From a virus, in the IMG/VR virus record IMGVR_UViG_3300034013_000764, positions 1-41,663 of that record: a stretch of 41,663 nt of DNA; one strand, 5' to 3'. Shown here one piece after another: positions 6,726-30,304 of this stretch (its first letter is position 1; the number at the start of each line of letters is the position of its first letter). Position numbers and translations under genes: made by a program. The notes below the pieces were generated by a model that searched no databases, had not been told where the DNA came from, and saw nothing but the letters and a program-made list of their open reading frames with translations.

Positions 6726-7022
6726 TTAAGAGTCAGTAACCATTTCTCTCACCTTTTGATGCCCTTTTAAAGCTTCATCGAATGTTTGATATCTCCACTG
6801 ATCGCCATCCAATTTGTCTCCAAAACACATTGTTTCAAACAAAATTGGTGCCCCACTGTCATTCCCAATGTCTTGACCTAAAAAAACAGTGCTTATCTTT
6901 GTATTGCCAATTGTTTCTTGCTTGACTATTTTGTTTTCTAGAATGTCCAAAAATTCACAATACTCCTCCCAGTCGGCCTCTATTGGCTCTTTATTGTCAT
7001 TTAAAATATAGTATTTTCTCAT
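6726..7022 (-). CDS. Conserved phage protein of unknown function
   Basis: A 98-residue protein. The pattern YYILNDNKEPIEAD, then ISTVFLGQDIGN, then PILFETMCFG, then DQWRYQTFDEALKGHQ is familiar from many phage genomes as a small conserved protein with no assigned function (recognised from memory, not searched). It overlaps the stop of the upstream membrane-protein gene as ATGA. Confidence 0.8.
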   Translation of the reverse strand: MRKYYILNDNKEPIEADWEEYCEFLDILENKIVKQETIGNTKISTVFLGQDIGNDSGAPILFETMCFGDKLDGDQWRYQTFDEALKGHQKVREMVTDS

Positions 7023-7174
7023 TTGTTAACGTAAATCAACGACAGCATCGCCAAACCTAGCAAAACAAAAGCGGCTAAAACGGCTTGAAAACATGAACCC
7101 CAATTTATTCTCTTTTTCTTTGCAGGGATCAAGCGAATTGTTTGCGGATCTCTGAGTTTTCCTAATTCATACAT
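7019..7174 (-). CDS. Small single-span membrane protein
   Basis: A 51-residue protein starting at ATG 7174 with a strong AGGAG site six bases upstream. A GTG at 7207 would lie inside the predicted -10 box and is rejected. Residues of about 26-48 (CFQAVLAAFVLLGLAMLSLI) form one transmembrane helix after a basic segment (AKKKR), suggesting an N-in orientation. It is the first gene read from the leftward promoter in the control region. Function unknown. Confidence 0.7.
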   Translation of the reverse strand: MYELGKLRDPQTIRLIPAKKKRINWGSCFQAVLAAFVLLGLAMLSLIYVNK

Positions 7175-7198
7175 TTGCTTCTCCTGATCTCTATTACT

Positions 7199-7226
7199 AT
7201 TGTACACAATTAGGGTATTATGTCAA
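7199..7226 (-). promoter_or_regulatory. Leftward promoter overlapping operator 1
   Basis: On the minus strand TTGACA (7226-7221), 16 bases, then TACAAT (7204-7199) is close to the sigma-70 consensus. It would drive the genes at 7174 and 7022. Its -35 box is the left half of the palindrome at 7221-7236, so operator binding should block it. Confidence 0.6.
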
Positions 7227-7236
7227 TTGAGTGACA
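7221..7236. promoter_or_regulatory. Operator 1 (TGTCAATTGAGTGACA)
   Basis: A 16-base imperfect palindrome (TGTCAA, four bases, GTGACA) ten bases before the start of the DNA-binding protein gene at 7246. It matches the perfect palindrome after that gene at 7453-7468, so the two look like sites for one regulator. Confidence 0.65.
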
Positions 7237-7245
7237 TAAACAATA

Positions 7246-7437
7246 ATGGATAGAACTACATACAAAGGCAAAGATTATCTAACTACGGCGCAAGTGGACG
7301 AATACTACAAGGTCAATGAGCGTCAGCTAAGATATTGGCAGCAAAAGGGTTTGATTAAATCGATTGCTATACCTGGATTTGCTAACACTAAGTTTTATGA
7401 GATCGAAGAACTTCTCAAAGTAATTAAACGAAAATAA
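7246..7437 (+). CDS. MerR/excisionase-like DNA-binding protein, likely switch regulator
   Basis: A 63-residue protein of about the size of a lone winged helix-turn-helix. LTTAQVDEYYKVNERQLRYW followed by QQKGLIKSI is the classic MerR-type pattern (recognition helix, RxLRYWxxxGLI), ending with a Tyr-containing wing and a helix EELLKVIKRK. The gene lies between two copies of the same palindrome, each overlapping a promoter -35 box, so it probably represses both directions and itself. ATG 7246 has no clear ribosome-binding site, so the operator at 7221 may also limit its expression. Confidence 0.75.
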   Translation: MDRTTYKGKDYLTTAQVDEYYKVNERQLRYWQQKGLIKSIAIPGFANTKFYEIEELLKVIKRK

Positions 7438-7452
7438 AAAGAAATTAATTAT

Positions 7453-7468
7453 TGTCAATCGGTTGACA
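7453..7468. promoter_or_regulatory. Operator 2 (TGTCAATCGGTTGACA)
   Basis: A perfect palindrome with six-base arms and a four-base centre, immediately after the MerR-like gene. It shares TGTCAA-N4-(T/G)TGACA with operator 1. Its right arm TTGACA is the -35 of the rightward promoter. Confidence 0.7.
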
Positions 7469-7492
7469 AAAAATGATTTAGATGGGAATATT
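7463..7492 (+). promoter_or_regulatory. Rightward promoter of the 7567-15118 operon
   Basis: TTGACA (7463-7468), 18 bases, then AATATT (7487-7492). The -35 is a perfect consensus and is embedded in operator 2. About 70 bases of leader (7500-7566) precede the first gene. I see no terminator or riboswitch-like structure there. Confidence 0.6.
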
Positions 7493-7566
7493 AAAACTGT
7501 GAAAAGGGAGCCCGTCAAAGCAATCCCTAATCATAGTCCCTAACAGACGAAAGGTAAATTAGGATC

Positions 7567-7872
7567 ATGAATAGTACACTAACTAAAAAGATAGAGTTCC
7601 TAAACAGCCGTTTTAGCTGCTTGGATAATCAGTTGAAAGACAGATTCCTCTCTGATTTCGAACGCCAAGAAATCATTAGCAATCGCAATCAGGTCGAGAA
7701 AGATATTGACTCGCTAGAGCGAGCCGAAAAAGAATCTATTTGCGAGCTTTATTATGATCAACGTTATCAATTTGCCCTCAAGCACGATCACGAAAAAGAA
7801 GCAGAAGCAATTTTGCAAGAACGCATAGACCTTAATTATGAGCTGATCAAGAACAGGAGTATGTCTAAATGA
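7567..7872 (+). CDS. Hypothetical coiled-coil protein, first gene of rightward operon
   Basis: A 101-residue, highly charged, predicted all-helical protein (FERQEIISNRNQVEKDIDSL and similar). No domain recognised. As the first gene after the controlled rightward promoter it is likely expressed early. Its stop overlaps the next start as ATGA. Confidence 0.75.
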   Translation: MNSTLTKKIEFLNSRFSCLDNQLKDRFLSDFERQEIISNRNQVEKDIDSLERAEKESICELYYDQRYQFALKHDHEKEAEAILQERIDLNYELIKNRSMSK

Positions 7873-8033
7873 CACCAGAAGAAGAATTTTTAGCGATTGA
7901 AGAAACGATTAAATGGCTCGAAGCAAACGCTGCTAAATTTAAGATTCCAGAGCATTACGCTAAATACCTAGCAAGTAATTTAGCGAGACAAAAAGACGTA
8001 TTAAACACGCTTACAATTAAAAAAAGTATTTAA
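7869..8033 (+). CDS. Small hypothetical protein
   Basis: A 54-residue protein whose ATG overlaps the previous stop (ATGA). It is predicted helical (EEFLAIEETIKWLEANAAKF) with a basic C-terminus. It fills the gap between 7872 and 8047 in the operon, and coupling is the main support. Function unknown. Confidence 0.65.
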   Translation: MTPEEEFLAIEETIKWLEANAAKFKIPEHYAKYLASNLARQKDVLNTLTIKKSI

Positions 8034-8046
8034 CGAAAGGAACAAA

Positions 8047-8367
8047 ATGAACGAATCAATAACAATAAATGGCGAAGTGTATTACAAAAATCCACCAACA
8101 GAAGCCACTGGAGATATTAAAATTTGCGTTTTGCAAAGAGGGCACGTTCTGATTGGGCGATTTGAAAGAGATGGCTCTGAGTGCAAATTGCACAATGCCT
8201 CGGTTATTAGATCTTGGGGCACTTCAAGGGGGCTTGGAGAGCTTGCACAAAATGGCCCTTTAACAAATACAAAATTGGATAAATGTAACGGACTCGTTGA
8301 ATTTGATTACTTAACAGTTGTTTTCACCTTATCAGCCGAGGAATCAAAATGGCTAAACGTACTATAA
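8047..8367 (+). CDS. Conserved phage protein paired with glycine-rich genes
   Basis: A 106-residue protein with GAAAGGAAC as ribosome-binding site. The core KICVLQRGHVLIGRFERDG, then RSWGTSRGLGELAQNGP, resembles small phage proteins of the DUF6948 type. From memory, genes of this type are often found just upstream of (Gly-X)n glycine-rich genes, as here; this is unverified. Its last 19 bases overlap the first glycine-rich gene, implying coupled translation and perhaps a shared function. Confidence 0.7.
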   Translation: MNESITINGEVYYKNPPTEATGDIKICVLQRGHVLIGRFERDGSECKLHNASVIRSWGTSRGLGELAQNGPLTNTKLDKCNGLVEFDYLTVVFTLSAEESKWLNVL

Positions 8368-8591
8368 ATTTTGAGGTGAATCAAAATTCCTATAACTACG
8401 GCTTTGGCTCAGGCGATGGCTCAGGCAATGGCTTTGGTGATGGCTTAGGCTCAGGCGATGGCTTTGGTTCAGGCGATGGCTTTGGCTATGGCAACGGTTA
8501 CGGCTCAGGCTCAGGCGATGGCTTAGACTATGGCTTTGGTGATGGCTCAGGCTATGGCTCAGGCTATGGCTACGTCAACGGCGATGGCTAA
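8349..8591 (+). CDS. Glycine-rich (Gly-X)n protein, copy 1 of 7
   Basis: An 80-residue protein. It has the constant head MAKRTINFEVNQNSY and then a tail of alternating glycine with S, D, N, Y, F or L. The tail is encoded by GGC-NNN hexamers, mostly GGC TCA, GGC GAT, GGC TTT and GGC TAT. It starts inside the preceding gene (19-base overlap), unlike the other copies, which follow a 22-23-base spacer. There is no signal peptide, membrane span or catalytic motif. Alternating Gly-X favours flexible or silk-like beta structure; function unknown. Confidence 0.8.
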   Translation: MAKRTINFEVNQNSYNYGFGSGDGSGNGFGDGLGSGDGFGSGDGFGYGNGYGSGSGDGLDYGFGDGSGYGSGYGYVNGDG

Positions 8592-8614
8592 AACCCTAAA
8601 CTCATTAAACAAAA

Positions 8615-8884
8615 ATGGCTAAACGTACTATAAATTTTGAGTTAAATCAAAATTCCTATGACAAGGGCTTTGGCGATGGCTTTGGCTCAGGCTATGGCTC
8701 AGGCTTTGGCAATGGTTCAGGTTACGGCGATGGCTCAGGCTATGGCAATGGTTCAGGTTACGGCTCAGGCTTTGGCTATGATGGCGATGGTTATGGCGAT
8801 GGCTATGGTGATGGCTCAGACTATGGCTGTGGTGATGGCTCAGGCTATGGCTCAGGCTATGGCTACGTCAATGGTAACGGCTAG
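8615..8884 (+). CDS. Glycine-rich (Gly-X)n protein, copy 2 of 7
   Basis: An 89-residue paralog. The head is MAKRTINFELNQNSY and the tail is built from GYGSGFGNGSGYGDG-type units with S, Y, D, N, F. The ending YGSGYGYVNGNG matches copy 1 (YGSGYGYVNGDG), so copies 1 and 2 are the closest pair at the 3' end. It is preceded by the conserved A-rich spacer without a Shine-Dalgarno sequence. Confidence 0.8.
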   Translation: MAKRTINFELNQNSYDKGFGDGFGSGYGSGFGNGSGYGDGSGYGNGSGYGSGFGYDGDGYGDGYGDGSDYGCGDGSGYGSGYGYVNGNG

Positions 8885-8906
8885 TACCTTAAACAAATTA
8901 AACAAA

Positions 8907-9167
8907 ATGACTAAACGTACTATAAATTTTGACGATAATCAAAATTCCTACGGTTCAGGCGATGACTATGGCGATGGCTTTGGCTCAGGCTATGGCTTAG
9001 GCTATGGCAATGGTGACGGCGATGGCTCAGGCTATGGCAATGGTCGTGGCGATGGCTTTGGCTCAGGCTTTGGCTCAGGCTATGGCAATGGTGACGGCTC
9101 AGGCTATGGCAATGGTCGTGGCGATGGTGACGGTTGGGGCGATGGCTGGAACAACGACAACGGCTAA
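8907..9167 (+). CDS. Glycine-rich (Gly-X)n protein, copy 3 of 7
   Basis: An 86-residue paralog with head MTKRTINFDDNQNSY. I placed the start at ATG 8907 from the head shared by all copies; the same frame is open much further upstream, but only as an out-of-frame reading of copy 2. The tail includes the internal repeat SGYGNGRGDG twice, introducing Arg, and ends in WGDGWNNDNG. Confidence 0.8.
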   Translation: MTKRTINFDDNQNSYGSGDDYGDGFGSGYGLGYGNGDGDGSGYGNGRGDGFGSGFGSGYGNGDGSGYGNGRGDGDGWGDGWNNDNG

Positions 9168-9189
9168 TACCCTTAACTCATTAAACAAA

Positions 9190-9438
9190 ATGGCTAAACG
9201 TACTATAAATTTTGAGTTAAATCAAAGTTCTTACGGCAACGATGGCAACGGCAACGGCAACGGCTGCGGCTGCGGCTGCGGTTATGGTGACGATGGTGAC
9301 GGTTATGGTGACGGTTATGGCTTTGGCGATGGTGACGGCTATGGCAATGGTTATGGTGACGATGGTAACGGTAATGGCGATGGCTATGGTTATGATGGTA
9401 ATGGCTTTGGCTATGGCGACAATTACGGCAACGACTAA
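9190..9438 (+). CDS. Glycine-rich (Gly-X)n protein, copy 4 of 7
   Basis: An 82-residue paralog with head MAKRTINFELNQSSY, starting at ATG 9190 by alignment with the other copies. The tail is poorer in Ser and richer in Asp and Asn, with a GCGCGCGYG run carrying three Cys residues. It ends GYGDNYGND. An antisense open frame across it is an artefact of the repeat. Confidence 0.8.
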   Translation: MAKRTINFELNQSSYGNDGNGNGNGCGCGCGYGDDGDGYGDGYGFGDGDGYGNGYGDDGNGNGDGYGYDGNGFGYGDNYGND

Positions 9439-9461
9439 AACCCTAAACAAATCAAACAAAA

Positions 9462-9731
9462 ATGGCTAAACGTACTATAAATTTTGATGAAAATCAAAAT
9501 TCCTACGGCGATGGCTCAGGTTGTGGTGACGGTTATGGTTTAGGCTACGGCTCAGGCGATGGCTTTGGTGACGGCTATGGCAATGGTTGCGGTAATGGCT
9601 ATGGTGATGGTCATGGCGATAACTTTGGTGACGGTGACGGTTGTGGCGATGGCTTTGGTGATGGCGATGGTATAGACGGTGACGGTTATGGCTCAGGCTA
9701 TGGCTACGGTTGGGGTGACGGCGATGGCTAA
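9462..9731 (+). CDS. Glycine-rich (Gly-X)n protein, copy 5 of 7
   Basis: An 89-residue paralog with head MAKRTINFDENQNSY. The tail contains Cys and His in addition to D, Y, F, N, S (GDGHGDNFGDGDGCGDG) and ends YGYGWGDGDG. The spacer before it is 23 bases and Shine-Dalgarno-free. Confidence 0.8.
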   Translation: MAKRTINFDENQNSYGDGSGCGDGYGLGYGSGDGFGDGYGNGCGNGYGDGHGDNFGDGDGCGDGFGDGDGIDGDGYGSGYGYGWGDGDG

Positions 9732-9753
9732 TACCCTAAACAAATTAAACAAA

Positions 9754-10026
9754 ATGACTAAACGTACTATAAATTTTGAGGTGAATCAAAATTCCCACGG
9801 CTACGGCAACAGCAACAGCTGGGGCGATGGTTATGGTGATGGTTGTGGTGATGGCAACGGTTGCGGTGGTGGTGGCTGGGGTGATGGTTATGGTGATAGT
9901 CATGGCGATGGTTGTGGCTTAGGCTACGGCTCAGGCGATGGCTTTGGTGACGGCTATGGCTATGGCAATGGTGACGGCGATGGTTATGGCTGGGGCGGCG
10001 GTTATGGTGATAATGGTTATGGCTAA
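9754..10026 (+). CDS. Glycine-rich (Gly-X)n protein, copy 6 of 7
   Basis: A 90-residue paralog with head MTKRTINFEVNQNSH, starting at ATG 9754 by alignment. The tail opens with an unusual GNSNSWGDG segment, has Trp, Cys and His, and includes a GGGG run (CGGGGWGDG). It ends YGDNGYG. Confidence 0.8.
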   Translation: MTKRTINFEVNQNSHGYGNSNSWGDGYGDGCGDGNGCGGGGWGDGYGDSHGDGCGLGYGSGDGFGDGYGYGNGDGDGYGWGGGYGDNGYG

Positions 10027-10048
10027 AACTCTAAACAAATTAAACAAA

Positions 10049-10315
10049 ATGGCTAAACGTACTATAAATTTTGAGGTGAATCAAAATTCCCACGGCTTAG
10101 GCTCAGGTTGTGGCTATGGCGATGGTTGTGGTTATGGTCATGGCGATGGTTGTGGCGATGGCTTAGGCTATGGCAATGGTGACGGCTCAGGCTATGGCAA
10201 TGGTCGTGGCGATGGCGATGGCGATGGTTATGGCTGGTGCGGCGGTTATGGTTACGGCGATGGCTGGGGCGATGGCTATGGTTATGGCGATGGTGACGGG
10301 GGATATTGCAACTAG
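10049..10315 (+). CDS. Glycine-rich (Gly-X)n protein, copy 7 of 7
   Basis: An 88-residue paralog with head MAKRTINFEVNQNSH, starting at ATG 10049. The tail carries several Cys residues spaced among Gly (GSGCGYGDGCGYGHGDGCGDG) and the SGYGNGRGDGDG unit shared with copy 3. It ends GDGGYCN, departing from the repeat. A short terminator-like hairpin follows at 10329. Confidence 0.8.
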   Translation: MAKRTINFEVNQNSHGLGSGCGYGDGCGYGHGDGCGDGLGYGNGDGSGYGNGRGDGDGDGYGWCGGYGYGDGWGDGYGYGDGDGGYCN

Positions 10316-10328
10316 TGATGTTGCAGTA

Positions 10329-10350
10329 GCTCTTCAAGAGCCTTGTTTTT
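10329..10350 (+). terminator. Weak intrinsic terminator after the glycine-rich array
   Basis: GCTCT (10329-10333), a three-base loop, AGAGC (10337-10341), then C and TTGTTTTT (10343-10350). The stem has only five pairs, so it probably attenuates rather than stops transcription into the downstream genes. Confidence 0.45.
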
Positions 10351-10378
10351 GAATAATACCCTAAACAAATTAAACAAA

Positions 10379-10609
10379 ATGACACAAAACCCACTATACG
10401 TAGATCATAAAATCAATCAGCTCGAAAAAGAGCGTATGCAATGGAAACCAGAAAACTCTAGACCAATTCCTGTTATTGAAGCAGAGCTCAGAAGCTACAG
10501 AGCCATTCAGTCTGGCAATCACAACAATGCAGAATTTACACATACATTTATAAACGGAGGACAACATGGACAAAGAAACACTACAAACAAGCTATATGAC
10601 AGTAATTAA
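10379..10609 (+). CDS. Hypothetical protein using the array leader
   Basis: A 76-residue protein starting at ATG 10379, directly after the same spacer that precedes the glycine-rich genes, but with an unrelated sequence (MTQNPLYVDHKINQLEKERM). It is helical and charged. Its final part overlaps the next gene by 44 bases, and the ribosome-binding site of that gene (GGAGG) lies inside it. Function unknown. Confidence 0.7.
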   Translation: MTQNPLYVDHKINQLEKERMQWKPENSRPIPVIEAELRSYRAIQSGNHNNAEFTHTFINGGQHGQRNTTNKLYDSN

Positions 10610-10832
10610 GGAGCTTGAAAGGCTTGAGAATGAGCTAGAGGCTGCACAAGAAGAAGAAAATGACTTTGTCTCTCTAACCGACCATAAAACCTACGGCTCC
10701 ATTGAATCTCAAAGAGAGGCTTATTTAGCTATTAAATTTCCAAATATAGGCTCAAAGAAAAAGCTAATCAAACAAGCTCAACGCCGCCGTGAGTACTACA
10801 GAGACATGATAACGCTCTACGCAAGCAAATAA
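10566..10832 (+). CDS. Hypothetical coiled-coil protein
   Basis: An 88-residue, highly charged helical protein (MTVIKELERLENELEAAQEE) with a strong GGAGG site before ATG 10566. No domain recognised. The 130 bases between it and the ssDNA-binding gene hold no gene, only a leader with a small CGTC/GACG inverted repeat near 10872-10887. Confidence 0.75.
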   Translation: MDKETLQTSYMTVIKELERLENELEAAQEEENDFVSLTDHKTYGSIESQREAYLAIKFPNIGSKKKLIKQAQRRREYYRDMITLYASK

Positions 10833-10961
10833 ATTTAGGCGGGTTGGTAAACCCTAAACCAAAGCTTCCACGTCGGACATTAGACGTTTATAAACTAGAA
10901 TGTCAGCGAGAAGGGGAACTTGCGCCAAATCCCCATTAATTACACGCAAAGGGAAAATACA

Positions 10962-11528
10962 ATGAACTTTTTTGATCCAAATTACCAATTACCAAACCAA
11001 AAAGACCAATTTCTAAAATTTACAGCAGGAACAAACAAATTTCGCTTTATTGGCTTGCCTGTCACTGGTTATGAATACTTCGTGAAACTAGAAGACAAAA
11101 CGATGAAGCTAACCAGACTCGAAAAGAATCCATTTACATTTGAAGAGTTGGCAATGTTGCCACCTTCCAAACCTGGACAAAAGCCCCAATATTTTATGGC
11201 TTGCTGTGTCTATGACTACAACTCAGACAGCTTCAAAATACTGTCCTTAACTCAAATCGGCTTACTTAAGAGCATCAGAGAATATATCAATAATCCTGAC
11301 TACGGCGTTCAAATCGAAGGCTACGACTTCACCGTTACGAAGAAAGGGGAAGGGATAAAAACCGAATATTCTATTATTCCTAGTCCTCCAAAGCCACTAG
11401 CCAAGGCTATTGCTGAAAGAGCAAAAACTTTACAATACGATTTAAATAAATTGTTTGATGATGAATACCCAGCTGATTCTTTTCCGTTTGAAGGCAAAGT
11501 CAGAGAGGAGCTGTTGAAAAATGGATAG
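10962..11528 (+). CDS. gp32-like single-stranded DNA-binding protein
   Basis: A 188-residue protein that would coat ssDNA during replication and recombination. The opening QFLKFTAGTNKFRFIGLPVT followed by GYEYF, the middle YFMACCVYDYNSDSFKILSL, and YDFTVTKKGEGIKTEYSIIP then PPKPL follow the layout of phage gp32-like ssDNA-binding proteins (OB-fold core with basic patches). The C-terminus is acidic (FDDEYPADSFPFEG), as expected for a partner-binding tail. ATG 10962 has AAAGGG upstream; in-frame codons from 10920 lack a site. Confidence 0.75.
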   Translation: MNFFDPNYQLPNQKDQFLKFTAGTNKFRFIGLPVTGYEYFVKLEDKTMKLTRLEKNPFTFEELAMLPPSKPGQKPQYFMACCVYDYNSDSFKILSLTQIGLLKSIREYINNPDYGVQIEGYDFTVTKKGEGIKTEYSIIPSPPKPLAKAIAERAKTLQYDLNKLFDDEYPADSFPFEGKVREELLKNG

Positions 11529-11910
11529 AGAAATAATATTTAGAGGGAAAACCAACTCTGGAAATTGGGCTTATGGCTCATTGTTAACTGATATTGATGA
11601 TGCTTTAAACTATGCACGGAAACAGAAAGACTATTTCAACACACTATTGATTGCTGCCAGCAAGGCGACCAGAGAAGAACATTTTGAAGAAGAAAACAAA
11701 TCTCTTAAAAGAAAGCTTGAACTTGCAGAGCGGGAATTGAAGCAATGTAAGGGTTTGAATGTTCGCTTAACTGGTGTTTTGGCCAGCGTTAACAATATTG
11801 AAATTTGTAAACATTGTGGCGGCGATGGCGGTTTTGATGCGGGCGAAGATTCTTGTGAATGCCCTGTTTGTGGCGGTTCTGGATACGTAAAAATAGAGGT
11901 GAAAAATTGA
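11521..11910 (+). CDS. YopX-like N-terminus fused to coiled coil and zinc finger
   Basis: A 129-residue protein. Residues 1-22 (MDREIIFRGKTNSGNWAYGS and following) match the start of YopX-family phage proteins, which normally continue for over 100 residues. Here they lead into a coiled coil (about 55-80) and then a Cys-rich knuckle, CKHCGGDGGF...CECPVCGGSG (about 97-122), of the DnaJ CxxCxGxG type, likely binding one zinc. This looks like a module swap. It overlaps the ssDNA-binding gene by eight bases. Confidence 0.7.
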   Translation: MDREIIFRGKTNSGNWAYGSLLTDIDDALNYARKQKDYFNTLLIAASKATREEHFEEENKSLKRKLELAERELKQCKGLNVRLTGVLASVNNIEICKHCGGDGGFDAGEDSCECPVCGGSGYVKIEVKN

Positions 11911-24439: not shown

Positions 24440-27400
24440 TTAGTTTACTGTCAACCTTGCTAGTACTTCTCTATATTTCGTGCGATCCTTCGATTTGCTG
24501 CTTGCTGATTGTATTAGTTTTTTTGCTTTCAACCTGTCTTCAGGCTTCATAAGTGAATACACTCTAATCAACTCTTTGGCGGTTCTTGCTTGTACATATT
24601 CTTCTGTTAAAGGGTTTGAATATTCTCCCTTTTGCTTCTCTTGTCTTGCTTTCTTTTTATAGGCCGATTCAAGCACATCATCCATGATTTCGTTTCTGGA
24701 ATAATGCACATTTGGTATTTGATAGCGATCTTCTTCTAAAACATTTAATAGCCCTTCGATTCTTGTTTTGGCTTTTGGGTTTGGCTCCTTGAGTTTGTAT
24801 TTTTTTCCTACCTTAATAATTTCCTGTCCGCTTACTGACTCTGCCAATTCATCTTTGAGTTTGCTAGCTCTTTTAATATTCTTGGCTCCTAGGGTTGTTC
24901 CTAGTGCGTCTTGCCACTCAGGGGACTTAAAGTATTCTTCAAGCTTGTCGTTTTCCCTTGTCCAAACCTTAAGCGGCTCCCCTGTTTTCACCTTGCTCAA
25001 TACATCGGCTAATGTTCCTAGCCCTGAAATATACGGTGTAGCCTTTGCAATTGTTACAGCTCCATCAAGAGTATTACCGTTTGATATTTGCTTTAAGCCC
25101 TTCTCCAAGCTTCTTGGAAACCTTTTAGCAACTTCAACTAAAAACAATTTGCCCTCATCGTCTTGTTTGAAAGCGGTTTCAATTGTTTTAACTAAGCTTT
25201 CTTCATCTCTGAAATTAAGCGTTCCCAGTCTCAATTTGTCCCCAATTTGGAGTTTTAGCAGCTTGTTTGCAAAGTTTAATTGATCGATAGTGTCTATAAT
25301 TTTCTCTCTTTGTTCTGGCTCAAATTGATTTAAGGCAGTTTTCAGCAAAAAGCCAATCGGGCCAGTACCTGTCAAGAATCCAGTTCCCCCGATTAAAGTT
25401 CCGTAACCCAGATAACCAATAATAGAGCTGTAATCTTTGTTTCTAATTGCTCTATTAAGCATTCCTTGGAATCTCATGTTTTCGCTTTGTAGAGAAAGAA
25501 ACCCCTTTAAGGCAGTTGATGATTGAATATTCATTTTGTCTAAATATCCTTCTCCAACTCCAAAAGCCATTTGAGAAATCTTGTTCCACCTCATGGCAAA
25601 TTCAGCTCCTTCAGGAGTCATTACATCAAAGTTTTTAACAATATCTATTTTCTCTTTGGTCTGTTTAAACCAATCAGCCTCAAACTTTTTAGCCTGAGCA
25701 AATAGTGTTACATCCTGAGCATATTCAGTACCAAATTTGAAAAAGTCCACATTGCCAATTTTGAAACCGCTTGTGTCATCTAAATAAGTTCCAGTTTTAC
25801 CAGCTTCAAAAGCTTTAAACAATTTAGAGTTTCTATCAGTGACTGCCCTTAAATAACCCTCAACAATCCTTGCGGGATTCCCATTTTGCAGCAAGCTGTT
25901 TTTTAGAATTGGATCGGTGAGAGTGAGCAAAGTGCTCGATACTCTATTAAATAATGCAACTTTCAGAGCAAGCTTGTTTGCACCATCAATAAAAGGATTA
26001 TTGGCAATTTCTGGAGATTCCATCGCAAGCAAAGCTTTTAGATTATTAAAGTCTCTGCCAGTAAACTCTTTTTGATAATTTTTGATTAAGTCTTGTTTTT
26101 GTTTTTTTACCTTATTTAAACTTCTGATTATTTCCAGCAAGTCAACATCTGCTACCCCTTCAATATCTCCATCTTTTAGCATTCTGGTTATTTCGCTAGT
26201 GGAGAACTCATTGAATATTTCCCTGATTTTACTTACATCTTCTTTGGTAAACAAAGTGTTTATAGCAGTTCTAGCTAATGCCAGCTTGCCGTTTAGAGCT
26301 TCATACTGTCCGATAAATTCTTTGACTCTTGGATTCTTACTAAGCTGGAATTGTTCTCTAATAAATCTTTGAGTGCCAATCATGGAATCTGCTAAATCCC
26401 CAGCCTGTTGAGTAAATGCACTTAGCTTTTTATTATTACCTGCAAATTTGGGCAGTATTTCAGACCATCCACGCTTTAAGCCAATTGAACCAATCACCCC
26501 ATCCACAAAGAAGCTAGGATTATTCATGAAGCTAACTAGTTCACCTATTCCCTTCGCTCCTAAAATGCCAGCAAATGGATTGAAACCAAAAGTTAATTCT
26601 CTTTTCCTAAAGTTCTCTTTTATTAACTCTTGACCCGCTTCAGTGCCTTCTGGTAACTTGTTTTTACTTTTCCCTTTGGCAACGTCTAATATTTGGCTTA
26701 ACAACTTGTCGGAATTAAAAATTCCTTCGTTTAATTTACTGCGCAATTCTTTGTTCCTCTCCTCTAATAGGCTTGCAGGATTATCTTCCACCTCTTTGAT
26801 TTTCTTTTGAATGCCTTCAAATTTCTCGGCTCTTGCCTGTTCTTCTGGTGTTAATTCTTCTTTTAGCTGTCTAGTCTCACCACCTTTTTTACGTTGGAAA
26901 ATAGCAGTTCTATCAGTGTCAGAAACTAAGTCTCTTAATCTATCAGCCGTCAAAATATCATTGCTTATTTTGTTTCTTAGCACCTTACTTTCAGCAAGCG
27001 AAATCTTGTATTGCAAATCATTCCTTAAGAATTCAAGCCCTAATTTCTGCTTGTCTTTGGTTGTGTAATCAAAATCAATTCTTGTGTCAAGATTCTCAGT
27101 TTGAATGCTGAGTACGTCTTCAGATTCACTTGTTCCTTTGCTTGTAAATAAATCTGGATTCTTTTCTTTAAATTCAGCCTGTTTTTTTTGTAATTTATCT
27201 AATAATTCTTTTTCTTCTTCGGAATATACTTTTAGATTCTTTCCGTATATCGTAATGGTTACTTCTTTTCCTGCTAGTGGAGAAAGCACCCCTTCTTCAC
27301 CTTTAGGGACTTGAACTTCAAGGGTTTCACCCTCGGCCATTACTTTTTTAAGCCGATCCTTGACTTTTTCAGCTCTTGTTTCAGATATTTTTAAGGTTGC

Positions 27401-30304
27401 TTCTACTCTTGCCGCTTCGTCAATAATCTTTGAGTCTTCCTCTTTTAGCTTGAGGGATTCTTTAGCTCTTGGAATGTACCCGCTCTCTTCTGGTCTTATA
27501 GATAGATTCCTTCTAACATCTTGGAATTCTTGACCTGTTAAACCCTCTTTTGTTTGAGCGAATGAACGTGGATCAGCGGCGATCATGTCGTCTTCGGCTT
27601 GATTGCGTGGTGTTTGAACTGGGGAGGGTTGTTTACTGGTTAGATTATATTTTGCTTCTAGTTCTTGAAGGTCTGCACTGTGCTTTGCTATTTGTGCAGT
27701 GTAATCATCAACTGTTCTCTGATACCCTTTTTTTAATTTGCCACTATTTAGGCGTGACATTTTCCCCAAATTTTCAATAAAGTCTATTCCGCTCTTTGCG
27801 TTTTTGATTTTTGACTCTAAATTTTTCTTGTCGAATTCATAGTCTCTTTTTAGTATTCCTTCTCTTGTTAGTTTTTTGTCAGGGTCAATTATTTTGCCGT
27901 CAAGAATCGCCTGTTCATACTGTTTGTGAGCTTCTTTGTTTTGCGATTGCATTTTAGAAAAAGCATCGTTTTGTTCCTTTATAGACCGATTTGATTGTCT
28001 TTTGCCTTCAAGTCCTCTCCCCCCTAGTAATTGAGCCTGAAAAGCTGTGTCGTAATCGCTAGGAAATCCATTTTCTGTAGCAAATTGCGTAAAGTTTTTC
28101 TCTTTAATTTGACTTGTCTCAGTCGCTTTGCCTGTTTCCGTTTCAACTGGTGAGGGTTGTTTACCAGTCGGCTGACCCCCCGCTTTACCTGTTTGCGCAT
28201 CGGGAATTATGGGATTCTGTGTTTTTGGAGCATCGGGAATTATTGGCTTTTTAGGTATAGTCTCCTTTAGCTTAATATTACTTGTCTTTGTCTTTTCATC
28301 TTCAACTTGTTGGGCAACGGAATTACGTGTTTGTTCTATTAAGTTTCTCAATTCAGCATCGTCAACACCTAAGCGATTTTTCAGAGCCTCTCTAATTCGA
28401 GCTCTTTCTTCCAGCTGGCTTTTTGTTTTTTCTCCTTGCCCGCCTAACGCCCTACTTGAGAATTTTGGTTTACGTCCTAATTCATATAAAGCTCTCTGCT
28501 CTTTGCTCGCAAAAGTCAAAGTAACAGAATCACCATTTCCAATGGTTCTGTTTTGCGTGAGCGATTTGTAGCGCAGCAATTCATCCAACACGTCCGCTTT
28601 ACCTGTGCTATCTTGCTTTAATGGAATTTGGTTATCGAACAATGAGCCTGTGGGGGTACTGGGAGGCTGCTGAGGCGTGTTTGAAGAATTCACAAACTCC
28701 GAATCGGCCGACTTATTGGGTTGAAAAGGAGCCGATCTTTGAGAATTAAGAATTTCATCTAATTGTTTTCTAGCTTCAGCCGTGTTTGATGTTTGATCTA
28801 TCTTTAATTTCTCAGCTAGTAAAATCCTTTTTTGTTCGTTTGCATCGTAAATCTGCTTTTGCAGTACCTGAATTTGTGCTTCCTTGTCTGGTAAATCTGA
28901 CTTTTGAAGCTCTTGAATCTTTTGCTTACTTAAACTAATGAATTGATTGTATTGACTAATACCAGCTTTCTTTTCTGTTTTGGGTTTTTCTCCTAGCAGT
29001 TCCCTGATTGAACTTGTTCTGGTTGCAGCATTTGCCTCAGTCTTAGGCATTTCAGGGAGTTTGATTTGTCCTTTTAAGGCTTTACCAGCTAAATCACCCG
29101 CTCCACGTAATGCACCAGCACTTACAAAATCACCAGCTGCATTAATGGCTAATTGACTTGGCAACTGTGATAATGCTTGTTCTTTGGTCAATGCTCCTGA
29201 GTCAACTTGTGAAAGCAAATCGCTTCCAGTTTGTAATGCGCTTAATCCTGCGTCTTGGACTCCCTCTTTTATGGCTGCGCCTGCAATTTTTTTGACAACT
29301 GAAGGGGCTCCAGCTTTTGCAAGTGTTTTAATTGTTGAAGCAGCGGCGTTCCTTGCTAATGCACCCTCAGGGGCAATCATGAAGGGAATAGATTCACCTG
29401 TAAGTCCAGTGCCACCAGCAACAATAGGGTTTTGATTTTGCAACATTTGGACTTGAGGACTTTCTTGAACATCCTGATTTACCCCTTGAAGATAATCACC
29501 AGCATATTTTAATAGCCCTGGCTTTTCTGGTTGATAGCCTACTTGTTTCATTAAGTTTTCAGGAGCTGAAAGAATTTGCCCAGCGGTTCTAACCAATGGA
29601 GCTCCACCACCTTGATAAATTGCGGCTGCTTTGGCTGCTATTGGCAATGCTTGTGCTTGAATTGAAGGCTGTCCACCTATCGCCCTAGTGAGTTCATTCC
29701 CTTTAAATGATGCGCTCTCAATTGGATTCATCCCCCCTGTTTTGTCAAGGAATTGAGTAACTTTTTTTGCTTCTCCAAATACTAATTCTTTATTTTTTGA
29801 TTCAATTTGCTTTCTTGCAGAATTTAAAGCGTCTTGAATTTCATTGTCATCAAATGAATTGGAATCTCTTAATTGCTTCTCAAATTGAGTTAAAGCTTCT
29901 TTCCCTTGCCTGTCTAAATCTAATCTGGCTGAATCAATGCTTTTAGCTTCTTCGCTTGCAATTCTATTAACTATTTTGTTTTTATCTGAAAGCTTGCTTG
30001 CTAGTCCTTGAGAAGCTAATTGATTTTCTTTTTGGGCTAGACCTCTAGCTTGTTGTCCTGAAACTCTGCCTGAAACGCTTTGGAATAAATCATTTGCATC
30101 TAAAACATTATTTCTATTAGGAATTATTGATTGAGCGGCCTGAATTGACTTAAGCTGATTTACATCTGCACGGTTTGACAATCCACTAATAATGTCTTGA
30201 GCCCCTGAAAGGCCACGGCTGAACAATCCCCCCATTGCATCTTCTATTCTGGGAATTCCCGCTTTTTTTACAATTGCTTGATTTGGAATATAGCCTTGAG
30301 TCAT
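24440..30304 (-). CDS. Giant internal virion / DNA ejection protein
   Basis: A 1,954-residue protein, 14% of the genome. The N-terminus is Gly/Ala/Gln-rich. Residues of about 400-1,150 are charged coiled coil broken by Pro/Thr linkers (KQPSPVETETGKATE; KPIIPDAPKTQNPIIPDAQT). Hydrophobic stretches occur near 235, 1,248 (FNPFAGILGAKGIGELVSF) and 1,635 (IGYLGYGTLIGGTGFLTGTG). Such proteins in podoviruses are packed inside the head and form a trans-envelope channel for DNA entry. I see no clear lytic transglycosylase motif. Confidence 0.7.
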   Translation of the reverse strand: MTQGYIPNQAIVKKAGIPRIEDAMGGLFSRGLSGAQDIISGLSNRADVNQLKSIQAAQSIIPNRNNVLDANDLFQSVSGRVSGQQARGLAQKENQLASQGLASKLSDKNKIVNRIASEEAKSIDSARLDLDRQGKEALTQFEKQLRDSNSFDDNEIQDALNSARKQIESKNKELVFGEAKKVTQFLDKTGGMNPIESASFKGNELTRAIGGQPSIQAQALPIAAKAAAIYQGGGAPLVRTAGQILSAPENLMKQVGYQPEKPGLLKYAGDYLQGVNQDVQESPQVQMLQNQNPIVAGGTGLTGESIPFMIAPEGALARNAAASTIKTLAKAGAPSVVKKIAGAAIKEGVQDAGLSALQTGSDLLSQVDSGALTKEQALSQLPSQLAINAAGDFVSAGALRGAGDLAGKALKGQIKLPEMPKTEANAATRTSSIRELLGEKPKTEKKAGISQYNQFISLSKQKIQELQKSDLPDKEAQIQVLQKQIYDANEQKRILLAEKLKIDQTSNTAEARKQLDEILNSQRSAPFQPNKSADSEFVNSSNTPQQPPSTPTGSLFDNQIPLKQDSTGKADVLDELLRYKSLTQNRTIGNGDSVTLTFASKEQRALYELGRKPKFSSRALGGQGEKTKSQLEERARIREALKNRLGVDDAELRNLIEQTRNSVAQQVEDEKTKTSNIKLKETIPKKPIIPDAPKTQNPIIPDAQTGKAGGQPTGKQPSPVETETGKATETSQIKEKNFTQFATENGFPSDYDTAFQAQLLGGRGLEGKRQSNRSIKEQNDAFSKMQSQNKEAHKQYEQAILDGKIIDPDKKLTREGILKRDYEFDKKNLESKIKNAKSGIDFIENLGKMSRLNSGKLKKGYQRTVDDYTAQIAKHSADLQELEAKYNLTSKQPSPVQTPRNQAEDDMIAADPRSFAQTKEGLTGQEFQDVRRNLSIRPEESGYIPRAKESLKLKEEDSKIIDEAARVEATLKISETRAEKVKDRLKKVMAEGETLEVQVPKGEEGVLSPLAGKEVTITIYGKNLKVYSEEEKELLDKLQKKQAEFKEKNPDLFTSKGTSESEDVLSIQTENLDTRIDFDYTTKDKQKLGLEFLRNDLQYKISLAESKVLRNKISNDILTADRLRDLVSDTDRTAIFQRKKGGETRQLKEELTPEEQARAEKFEGIQKKIKEVEDNPASLLEERNKELRSKLNEGIFNSDKLLSQILDVAKGKSKNKLPEGTEAGQELIKENFRKRELTFGFNPFAGILGAKGIGELVSFMNNPSFFVDGVIGSIGLKRGWSEILPKFAGNNKKLSAFTQQAGDLADSMIGTQRFIREQFQLSKNPRVKEFIGQYEALNGKLALARTAINTLFTKEDVSKIREIFNEFSTSEITRMLKDGDIEGVADVDLLEIIRSLNKVKKQKQDLIKNYQKEFTGRDFNNLKALLAMESPEIANNPFIDGANKLALKVALFNRVSSTLLTLTDPILKNSLLQNGNPARIVEGYLRAVTDRNSKLFKAFEAGKTGTYLDDTSGFKIGNVDFFKFGTEYAQDVTLFAQAKKFEADWFKQTKEKIDIVKNFDVMTPEGAEFAMRWNKISQMAFGVGEGYLDKMNIQSSTALKGFLSLQSENMRFQGMLNRAIRNKDYSSIIGYLGYGTLIGGTGFLTGTGPIGFLLKTALNQFEPEQREKIIDTIDQLNFANKLLKLQIGDKLRLGTLNFRDEESLVKTIETAFKQDDEGKLFLVEVAKRFPRSLEKGLKQISNGNTLDGAVTIAKATPYISGLGTLADVLSKVKTGEPLKVWTRENDKLEEYFKSPEWQDALGTTLGAKNIKRASKLKDELAESVSGQEIIKVGKKYKLKEPNPKAKTRIEGLLNVLEEDRYQIPNVHYSRNEIMDDVLESAYKKKARQEKQKGEYSNPLTEEYVQARTAKELIRVYSLMKPEDRLKAKKLIQSASSKSKDRTKYREVLARLTVN

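Follow-up and report, generated by a model that had tools for sequence, protein, structure and literature searches.

A seven-copy array of Gly-X genes beside a DUF6948-like gene in a viral genome, and a possible two-part phage system

The stretch of DNA analysed here (the window, 41,663 nucleotides (nt) of the IMG/VR virus record IMGVR_UViG_3300034013_000764) carries at 8349-10315 on the plus strand an array of seven consecutive open reading frames (ORFs), each with an ATG, a single terminal stop and no internal stop, which adjoins a gene related to the protein family DUF6948 (Table 1). All seven copies encode a common 15-residue head, M[A/T]KRTINF[E/D]xNQ[N/S]S[Y/H], followed by a variable tail of 65-75 amino acids (aa) in which glycine (45-49% of the tail) alternates with other residues; genes and proteins of this kind are called Gly-X below. 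The preliminary description of this DNA, made from the sequence alone, had reported seven consecutive genes with a shared head and variable Gly-X tails, and this was borne out. It placed the array at 8349-10378, of which the start is right, but the last copy ends at 10315 and the remainder is a spacer before the gene at 10379, which has the same leader on its 5' side as copies 2-7 of the array. The 45 nt of head DNA are near-identical across the copies and the six inter-copy spacers are 22-23-nt variants of one sequence, and the copies therefore arose via duplication of a gene-plus-spacer unit.

Table 1. Features of the array and its surroundings (window positions; L003 and L004 are loci of close relatives, see text).
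Feature	Positions	Strand	Product	Remarks
DUF6948-like gene, partner of Gly-X	8047-8367	+	106 aa	19-nt overlap with copy 1; predicted Sm/LSm-like barrel
Gly-X copy 1	8349-8591	+	80 aa	Start codon within the DUF6948 gene, 19-nt overlap; Shine-Dalgarno-like site in this copy only
Gly-X copy 2	8615-8884	+	89 aa	Tail 99% identity to L004 copy 1
Gly-X copy 3	8907-9167	+	86 aa	Tail 85% identity to L004 copy 2
Gly-X copy 4	9190-9438	+	82 aa	Tail 89% identity to L003 copy 2, 87% to L004 copy 3
Gly-X copy 5	9462-9731	+	89 aa	Tail 89% identity to L004 copy 4
Gly-X copy 6	9754-10026	+	90 aa	Tail 94% identity to L003 copy 3
Gly-X copy 7	10049-10315	+	88 aa	Tail 99% identity to L003 copy 4 and L004 copy 5
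Terminal spacer	10316-10378	+		Ends in a 'CCCTAAACAAATTAAACAAA'-type leader, as found ahead of copies 2-7
ssDNA-binding-protein-like gene, downstream context	10962-11528	+		PHROG 1192, E 9.3e-9; scanned from 10959, in frame

Tail chemistry drifts along the array, as had been noticed at the outset: from copy 1 to copy 7 the tails contain 8, 9, 6, 0, 3, 4 and 2 Ser residues and 0, 1, 2, 3, 5, 7 and 8 residues of Cys, Trp and His taken together. The tails are net negative, and the glycine alternation keeps a single phase in copies 1 and 3 and nearly so in copy 7, and slips in copies 2, 4, 5 and 6. Against Pfam and PHROG the Gly-X proteins gave weak low-complexity matches only (TrAA12, keratin and PHROG 10432; best E 5.4e-4, under cut-off), which were disregarded. 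A tblastn search of phages with one Gly-X protein gave no match, presumably due to low-complexity filtering, and a megablast search of phages with positions 1-25000 of the window gave none either.

The calculated Shine-Dalgarno pairing is -5.6 kcal/mol for the DUF6948 gene and -5.9 kcal/mol for copy 1; twelve comparison genes, DUF6948 included, range from -2.2 to -11.6 kcal/mol (the ssDNA-binding gene, i.e., that of a single-stranded-DNA-binding-like protein, was scored from 10959, 3 nt ahead of its ATG). For copies 2-7 and the gene at 10379 there is no such pairing (+1.7 or +1.8 kcal/mol). As copies 2-7 lack a Shine-Dalgarno site and start 22-23 nt after the preceding stop, they are likely to be translated by termination-reinitiation, i.e., coupled translation from one ribosome-entry site.

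A search for the head and a count of copies per genome had been proposed in the preliminary description. A degenerate DNA pattern for the head, run on IMG/VR, led to three loci, L002, L003 and L004 (loci are numbered in this way throughout). L003 and L004 are close relatives with four and five intact, non-identical copies, and their sample numbers differ from each other. At the level of tail DNA, window copies 2, 3, 4, 5 and 7 correspond in order to L004 copies 1-5 with 85-99% identity, and copy 1 has no close counterpart in the relatives (best tail identity 76%). The DUF6948 proteins of L003 and L004 are 98-99% identical to that of the window, yet the copy sets differ, and whole units are therefore gained and lost fast; the supposition of a diversified family with a variable copy number agrees with the 4, 5 and 7 copies found. 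Because related intact arrays of four and five copies occur in two other IMG/VR records, it is unlikely that the seven copies stem from an assembly artefact. L002, from a different phage, has just one Gly-X gene, with a KRTINFE head and an overlap of 19 nt with the upstream gene, as in the window.

The DUF6948 gene of the window matches Pfam PF22253 with E 3.2e-4 and 21.2 bits, under the cut-off of 27 bits, and intermediate sequences link it to members that exceed this value. Among the relatives above it are L057 (E 3e-31) and L076 (E 3e-23), and the L057 protein, of which L007 has an identical copy, can be aligned to that of the window. A search of IMG/VR with a five-member alignment of the window DUF6948 gave 48 viral loci, two of which end at most 43 nt past the gene. 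In all of the 46 loci with downstream sequence a Gly-X ORF was adjacent to, overlapping or fused with the DUF6948-like gene (46/46); these include L011, L012 and L020, which are contigs of L003, L004 and L002, and apparent near-duplicates (L032/L033, L038/L039, two Barba records and L056/L057). The window contains the pair in the same sense, i.e., a Gly-X ORF that overlaps DUF6948 by 19 nt on the same strand.

The association was also approached from the other side, with the pattern (GGYNAY)7GGY and without reference to DUF6948, which gave at least 120 stretches. Among those listed 4 are not Gly-X genes and 26 have the array less than 450 nt from the stretch start, which leaves 90 testable loci. 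A first-round profile, built from the DUF-selected set only, placed DUF6948 beside Gly-X in 75 of the 97 listed stretches with at least 450 nt upstream, against a background of 3 matches in 850 kb. With refined profiles, which contain sequences from the Gly-X loci tested, DUF6948 was found within 1.2 kb on the same strand in 81/90 testable loci, in 74 of them upstream, with 0 on the opposite strand and 1 match in the remaining 644 kb. Conversely, 101 of 109 DUF genes have a downstream Gly-X ORF, which starts -25 to +4 nt from the DUF stop in 100/101 pairs and overlaps it in 88 (the nearest start codon was chosen in this count, which favours close spacing). In two loci, L040 (with a short tail) and L076, the two are fused in frame. 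The evidence from gene order for a pairing of DUF6948 and Gly-X is strong, and across the loci compared Gly-X proteins appear as near-obligate neighbours of DUF6948. The link to DUF6948-type genes drawn in the preliminary description is thereby strengthened, but DUF6948 is not mere context as it had been treated there; it is a constant partner with a predicted Sm/LSm-like fold.

The fold was predicted with AlphaFold2 from 38 sequences, and the window model has a mean confidence (predicted local distance difference test, pLDDT) of 91.5 and a predicted template modelling score of 0.77. The 50 Foldseek and 50 VIA matches listed for it are all Sm, LSm or archaeal Sm proteins, Sm-sized chains of small nuclear ribonucleoprotein, spliceosome or pre-mRNA-processing entries, or the engineered particle TIP60, which has an Sm-like component; matches carry entry titles, and the identity of chains in complex entries is our reading. 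The best VIA match, also first in Foldseek, is the Sm-like structure 3by7 (Z 9.2, root-mean-square deviation (rmsd) 2.0, 68 residues), which is of putative cyanophage origin and is not among the sequence-profile matches of DUF6948 at E<=1; next in VIA comes LSm1-7 (Z 8.1, rmsd 1.9, 61 residues). A second, divergent DUF6948 subfamily, modelled as the fusion L076, gave Sm/LSm-type matches only among the 50 listed per search, without TIP60 (best match Z 7.7, rmsd 2.2, 65 residues; VIA Z over both models 6.8-9.2). Rof, an Sm-like inhibitor of Rho, is not among the 50 structural matches listed per search, and the first BFVD matches include proteins annotated DUF6948. A five-stranded Sm-like beta-barrel is thus a well supported prediction for DUF6948, and it is convincing because the match lists are uniform over two subfamilies, not because of the Z values. 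A scan of a genome collection for DUF6948 found one Chlorobiaceae metagenome-assembled genome (MAG). When applied to three records the Pfam DUF6948 model detected the MAG copy and missed the window-type copies of L003 and L004; it matched 0/14 control genomes.

In the model of the L076 fusion the Gly-X tail has a pLDDT of about 40-55, and from this one fusion model the tail is predicted to be disordered. Its composition and codons were tabulated for 40 of 49 DUF loci, nine redundant or tail-less ones being dropped. A single Gly codon dominates most tails but differs by phage: it is mostly GGC, with GGG in four loci, GGA in three and GGT in two, and L032 and L034 are mixed. Tyr, Asp, Asn and Ser make up 1397/1494 of the non-Gly residues (387 Asp), against 10 Cys and 5 His. 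Of the two residues for which ion binding had been suggested at the outset, Cys is thus too scarce for such binding to be a property of the family; Asp, which is common, may bind ions. The window is richer in this respect, with a Cys, Trp and Phe share of 41/263 in its tails versus 35/1494 elsewhere. Its tails use GGC or GGT for 234/236 Gly, versus 319/627 in 32 other genes, and TCA for 29/32 Ser, versus 175/671. His codons are one base away from those of Tyr, Asp and Asn. As the same Tyr/Asp/Asn/Ser peptide is encoded with differing Gly codons and His is nearly excluded, selection acts on the peptide, with slippage homogenising the DNA; it is the peptide and not the DNA that is conserved.

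Most loci have one Gly-X gene only, namely 41/49 in the DUF-selected set and 97/121 when the listed Gly-X stretches, many of them truncated, are counted together with the window. Tandem arrays recur nonetheless among the matches listed: L062 and L087 have five copies and L064 has four, all with heads unrelated to those of the window, and in loci where the genes were counted only, L153 and L157 have four and L116, L174 and L179 three. The preliminary description knew of no seven-copy expansion like this one; it is indeed the largest array among the matches listed, the others (tandem like the window in L062, L064, L087, L116, L153 and L157) having 3-5 copies, but as an array it is not without precedent. 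A constant head with a variable tail was also seen in the three arrays read, L062, L064 and L087. The L087 array (L087:1681-2971) is of a different design, its five tandem genes having a constant head RSSMGLKAFLKFG and in addition a constant C-terminal end EPNLTSAGATVVEE. Judging from these arrays the tail gene has been amplified more than once in evolution, which points to a role for the dose or diversity of tails.

The nearby gene for an ssDNA-binding-like protein that had been noticed at first sight is supported by its PHROG match (Table 1), and it further matches PHROG 1607 (E 5e-5) and, under cut-off, Pfam gp32 (E 0.0072). In the related loci 107 of 150 listed neighbouring ORFs were scanned, all on the same strand as DUF6948, and the first 25 of 141 PHROG and the first 25 of 40 Pfam families were listed. 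Recurrent among these are Erf, RecE/YqaJ exonuclease, Sak4, DnaB and other helicases, and HNH nucleases; the Pfam families SSB and RecT were each matched a single time. This replication and recombination neighbourhood is in line with the earlier view that an intracellular role is likelier than one in the capsid. The pair is present in the eight Rheinheimera Barba records examined (DUF6948 was matched in 115 Rheinheimera records) as well as in Iodobacter phiPLPE, Pectobacterium Sabo, Dickeya Setonix, Vibrio IKEMa6-1 and Eggerthella PMBT5. According to the available part of the source, the early cluster of Barba18A holds mainly genes for genome replication and nucleotide metabolism (PMC9305737), and early expression of the pair may be supposed. 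Within the one host of the Barba phages the Gly-X gene is 210 or 216 nt long in one species and 240 or 252 nt in another. In the window itself ten proteins were scanned against PHROG, with matches for no more than two of them, the terminase and a homing-endonuclease-like gene; the product of ORF 24440-30304 (1954 aa) had no PHROG match at E<=1e-3.

The sequences compared here demonstrate the pairing, the fusions, the conservation at the level of the peptide and the dynamics of the array. What counts is the pair of DUF6948 and Gly-X, and the window holds an extreme version of it with seven tails; the pair suggests an unrecognised two-part phage machine. The interpretation we prefer, with a probability of roughly one half, is a particle of Sm-like type inside the cell whose disordered Tyr/Gly-rich tails come from separate genes, the seven genes being the amplified half of a two-gene module. 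One half of the module would be DUF6948, a small protein with a predicted Sm/LSm-like beta-barrel, and the other a short head with a disordered Gly-[Tyr/Asp/Asn/Ser] tail, normally a single copy whose start overlaps the DUF6948 stop. The head would probably dock on the Sm-like partner, perhaps on a ring of it, and the particle would thus bear Gly/Tyr-rich tails in trans. It would probably act early, beside recombination and replication genes, and bind phage or host RNA or ssDNA, which the sticky tails may cluster or chaperone, possibly by condensation. The array would raise the tail dose and widen the tail chemistry (Cys, Trp, Phe), all copies presumably being made by coupled translation from one ribosome-entry site. 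It is tempting to speculate, though this wider claim is doubtful, that a two-component ribonucleoprotein or condensate system, with an Sm-like DUF6948 ring and a translation-coupled Gly/Tyr-rich disordered tail in trans, exists in tailed phages of very different hosts. Copy number and hexamer slippage would on this view tune valency, and the present phage would be one in which the tail gene was amplified to seven variants.

Several findings weigh against an Sm-like particle with tails in trans. DUF6948 was not within range in 9/90 testable Gly-X loci listed; among these L061 and L128 resemble acidic (GD)n runs and not Gly-X genes (they were kept in the count), and in L171 DUF6948 lies just past the 1.2-kb limit and is probably the single far match. 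The ORF after DUF6948 has a short Gly-X stretch and then another domain in L185 and L187 (gut records) and an irregular repeat in L184 (a spring-water phage). Head similarity is correlated with DUF6948 identity (r 0.28, reached by 0/2000 shuffles; 80 of 84 heads, 4-25 residues), but this covariation is weak, being flat under 40% DUF identity, and it does not demonstrate docking because the first residues of the head share DNA with the C-terminus of the partner and because common descent also confounds it. The VIA Z values, at 7-9, count as middling according to the note that accompanies the tool. No Sm, LSm or Hfq family of Pfam is matched by the DUF6948 of the window or by six relatives, the profile finds no Sm chain at E<=1, and the uridine-pocket residues typical of Sm proteins are not evident in DUF6948. 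DUF6948 is therefore not filed under those sequence families; a fold in common with them is predicted, and it may work alike. Finally, Gly-X stretches also occur in fusions with further small domains, and the tail is thus not exclusive to DUF6948.

These other fusions were seen in L096, L121, L072, L103, L130, L094, L105, L143, L147, L149, L172 and L177. The partner is DUF7666 in L096 (Pfam E 4.7e-30), and others, grouped by eye, are an 'ACxDGV' N-terminal, a 'TGSCxxGR' C-terminal and an 'LHAT..W' domain. They suggest that phage proteins built from a domain and a repeat form a system of wider extent.

The nearest known systems are Sm-like proteins with Gly-rich tails. SmD1, SmD3 and LSm4 carry such tails, and eukaryotic and other Sm/LSm-type chains fill the structural matches listed; the phage pair differs in having no Sm/LSm sequence match, no RG-rich tail and a tail that is a separate gene. 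Acinetobacter baumannii Hfq likewise combines an Sm core with a Gly-rich disordered tail, and the number of its Gly-rich repeats (GGFGGQ) matters for fitness and function (PMC11617691, available part). By analogy the phage particle would carry in trans what Hfq carries in cis; DUF6948, however, has no Pfam Hfq match, and the phage tail is rich in Tyr, Asp and Asn and, in the window copies, net negative. In the open-licence literature searched no mention of DUF6948 or of Gly-X strings was found, and nothing that joins phage, phase separation, disorder, Gly-rich and Sm-like; the repeat-related words sought do not occur in PMC6715854. ORFs for Gly-X proteins are common in phages and unexplained, and they carry the annotations hypothetical, 'lamprin' or 'adsorption protein'; linking them to a single partner that is predicted to have an Sm-like fold offers a function that can be tested for two orphan families at once. 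If the proposed particle exists, phages would have a counterpart of Hfq or LSm4 whose tail comes in trans, and it would be a simple natural model for how assemblies of RNA or ssDNA depend on a disordered Gly/Tyr-rich tail, on the length of this tail and on the number of its copies. The relatives with 4, 5 and 7 copies and the Barba isolates that differ in hexamer steps are a ready-made allelic series.

It is conceivable, but unlikely, that the pair is instead directed at the host, with Gly-X as a decoy or inhibitor of a defence protein, a protease or a host Sm-like protein, DUF6948 delivering or stabilising it, and diversity reflecting an arms race. The fast turnover of copy number and tails among close relatives, the Gly-X gene lengths of eight Barba phages, which share a host and differ in steps of a hexamer, and the wider residue alphabet in the window would suit such an effector, but a composition that is near-uniform in 40 loci and similar across very different hosts is odd for an arms race, and no defence family is prominent among the first 25 PHROG and first 25 Pfam neighbour families listed (PADLOC was not searched). 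The decoy or host-interaction surface suggested in the preliminary description is not directly supported.

A role in the virion or in adhesion, with Gly-X as a structural element of flexible or silk-like nature that DUF6948 would chaperone, is improbable. The idea draws on the Gly-rich stretches in a filamentous-phage minor coat protein and on Eggerthella PMBT5, whose 'adsorption protein' in GenBank (NC_048022.1 27730-28056; L180:2420-2746) is a Gly-X protein beside a DUF6948-like gene. Against it, Gly-X genes sit among replication and recombination genes, and mass spectrometry of PMBT5 virions identified six proteins (ORF4, 16, 21, 25, 26 and 28) with Gly-X not among them, at a titre that the authors note to be low (PMC9394477, available part); the tail has almost no Lys or Arg, and a trypsin-based analysis would probably miss it. 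The GenBank label is probably wrong.

Little probability also attaches to a neutral product of slippage, i.e., hexamer repeats that expand and are tolerated without function. One-codon tails, hexamer-step length differences and tandem repeats are what slippage would leave behind, but it would hardly keep to one set of residues while the codons change, nearly bar His from the NAY codons, leave the frames intact, place the gene in overlap with one particular partner or give rise to natural fusions. A function in the repeated DNA or mRNA rather than the peptide is very improbable: the biased Gly and Ser codons of the window tails speak for it, but elsewhere the same peptide occurs in phages with GGG, GGA or GGT as nearly the sole Gly codon, the copies of the window, L003 and L004 are all intact ORFs, one-codon tails fit hexamer slippage, and no Rfam match at gathering score lies in 7000-11600. 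Precursors of ribosomally synthesised and post-translationally modified peptides, which the constant head (leader) and variable tail (core) of the window array, L087, L064 and L062 recall, can hardly be involved, given that leaders differ widely between phages and that among 107 proteins encoded around the related loci (in the window itself part of the neighbours were scanned) no modifying-enzyme family recurs and one Radical SAM match was seen.

Some further observations concern the array and its edge. Long alternative-frame ORFs of (Met-Ala)n type (8658-9167, 9004-9438, 9679-10026 and 9938-10315) run from one copy in frame into the next head, and annotated ORFs in MW202478 (L008:1505-2077) and MW202566 (L009:3111-3401) resemble such wrong-frame calls. 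Fusion of copies by frameshifting through this frame was considered, but with stops in it and variable spacing the frame is probably incidental. At the end of copy 7 and in the spacer, 50 nt (10299-10348) are 96% identical to L003:3344-3393 within the L003 ORF 3211-3600, which we read as an internal translocation at the array edge. The window ORF 11521-11910 has its first 21 residues in common with that L003 ORF, after which it diverges and ends in a Cys-rich stretch of CxxC type, which suggests gene rearrangement.

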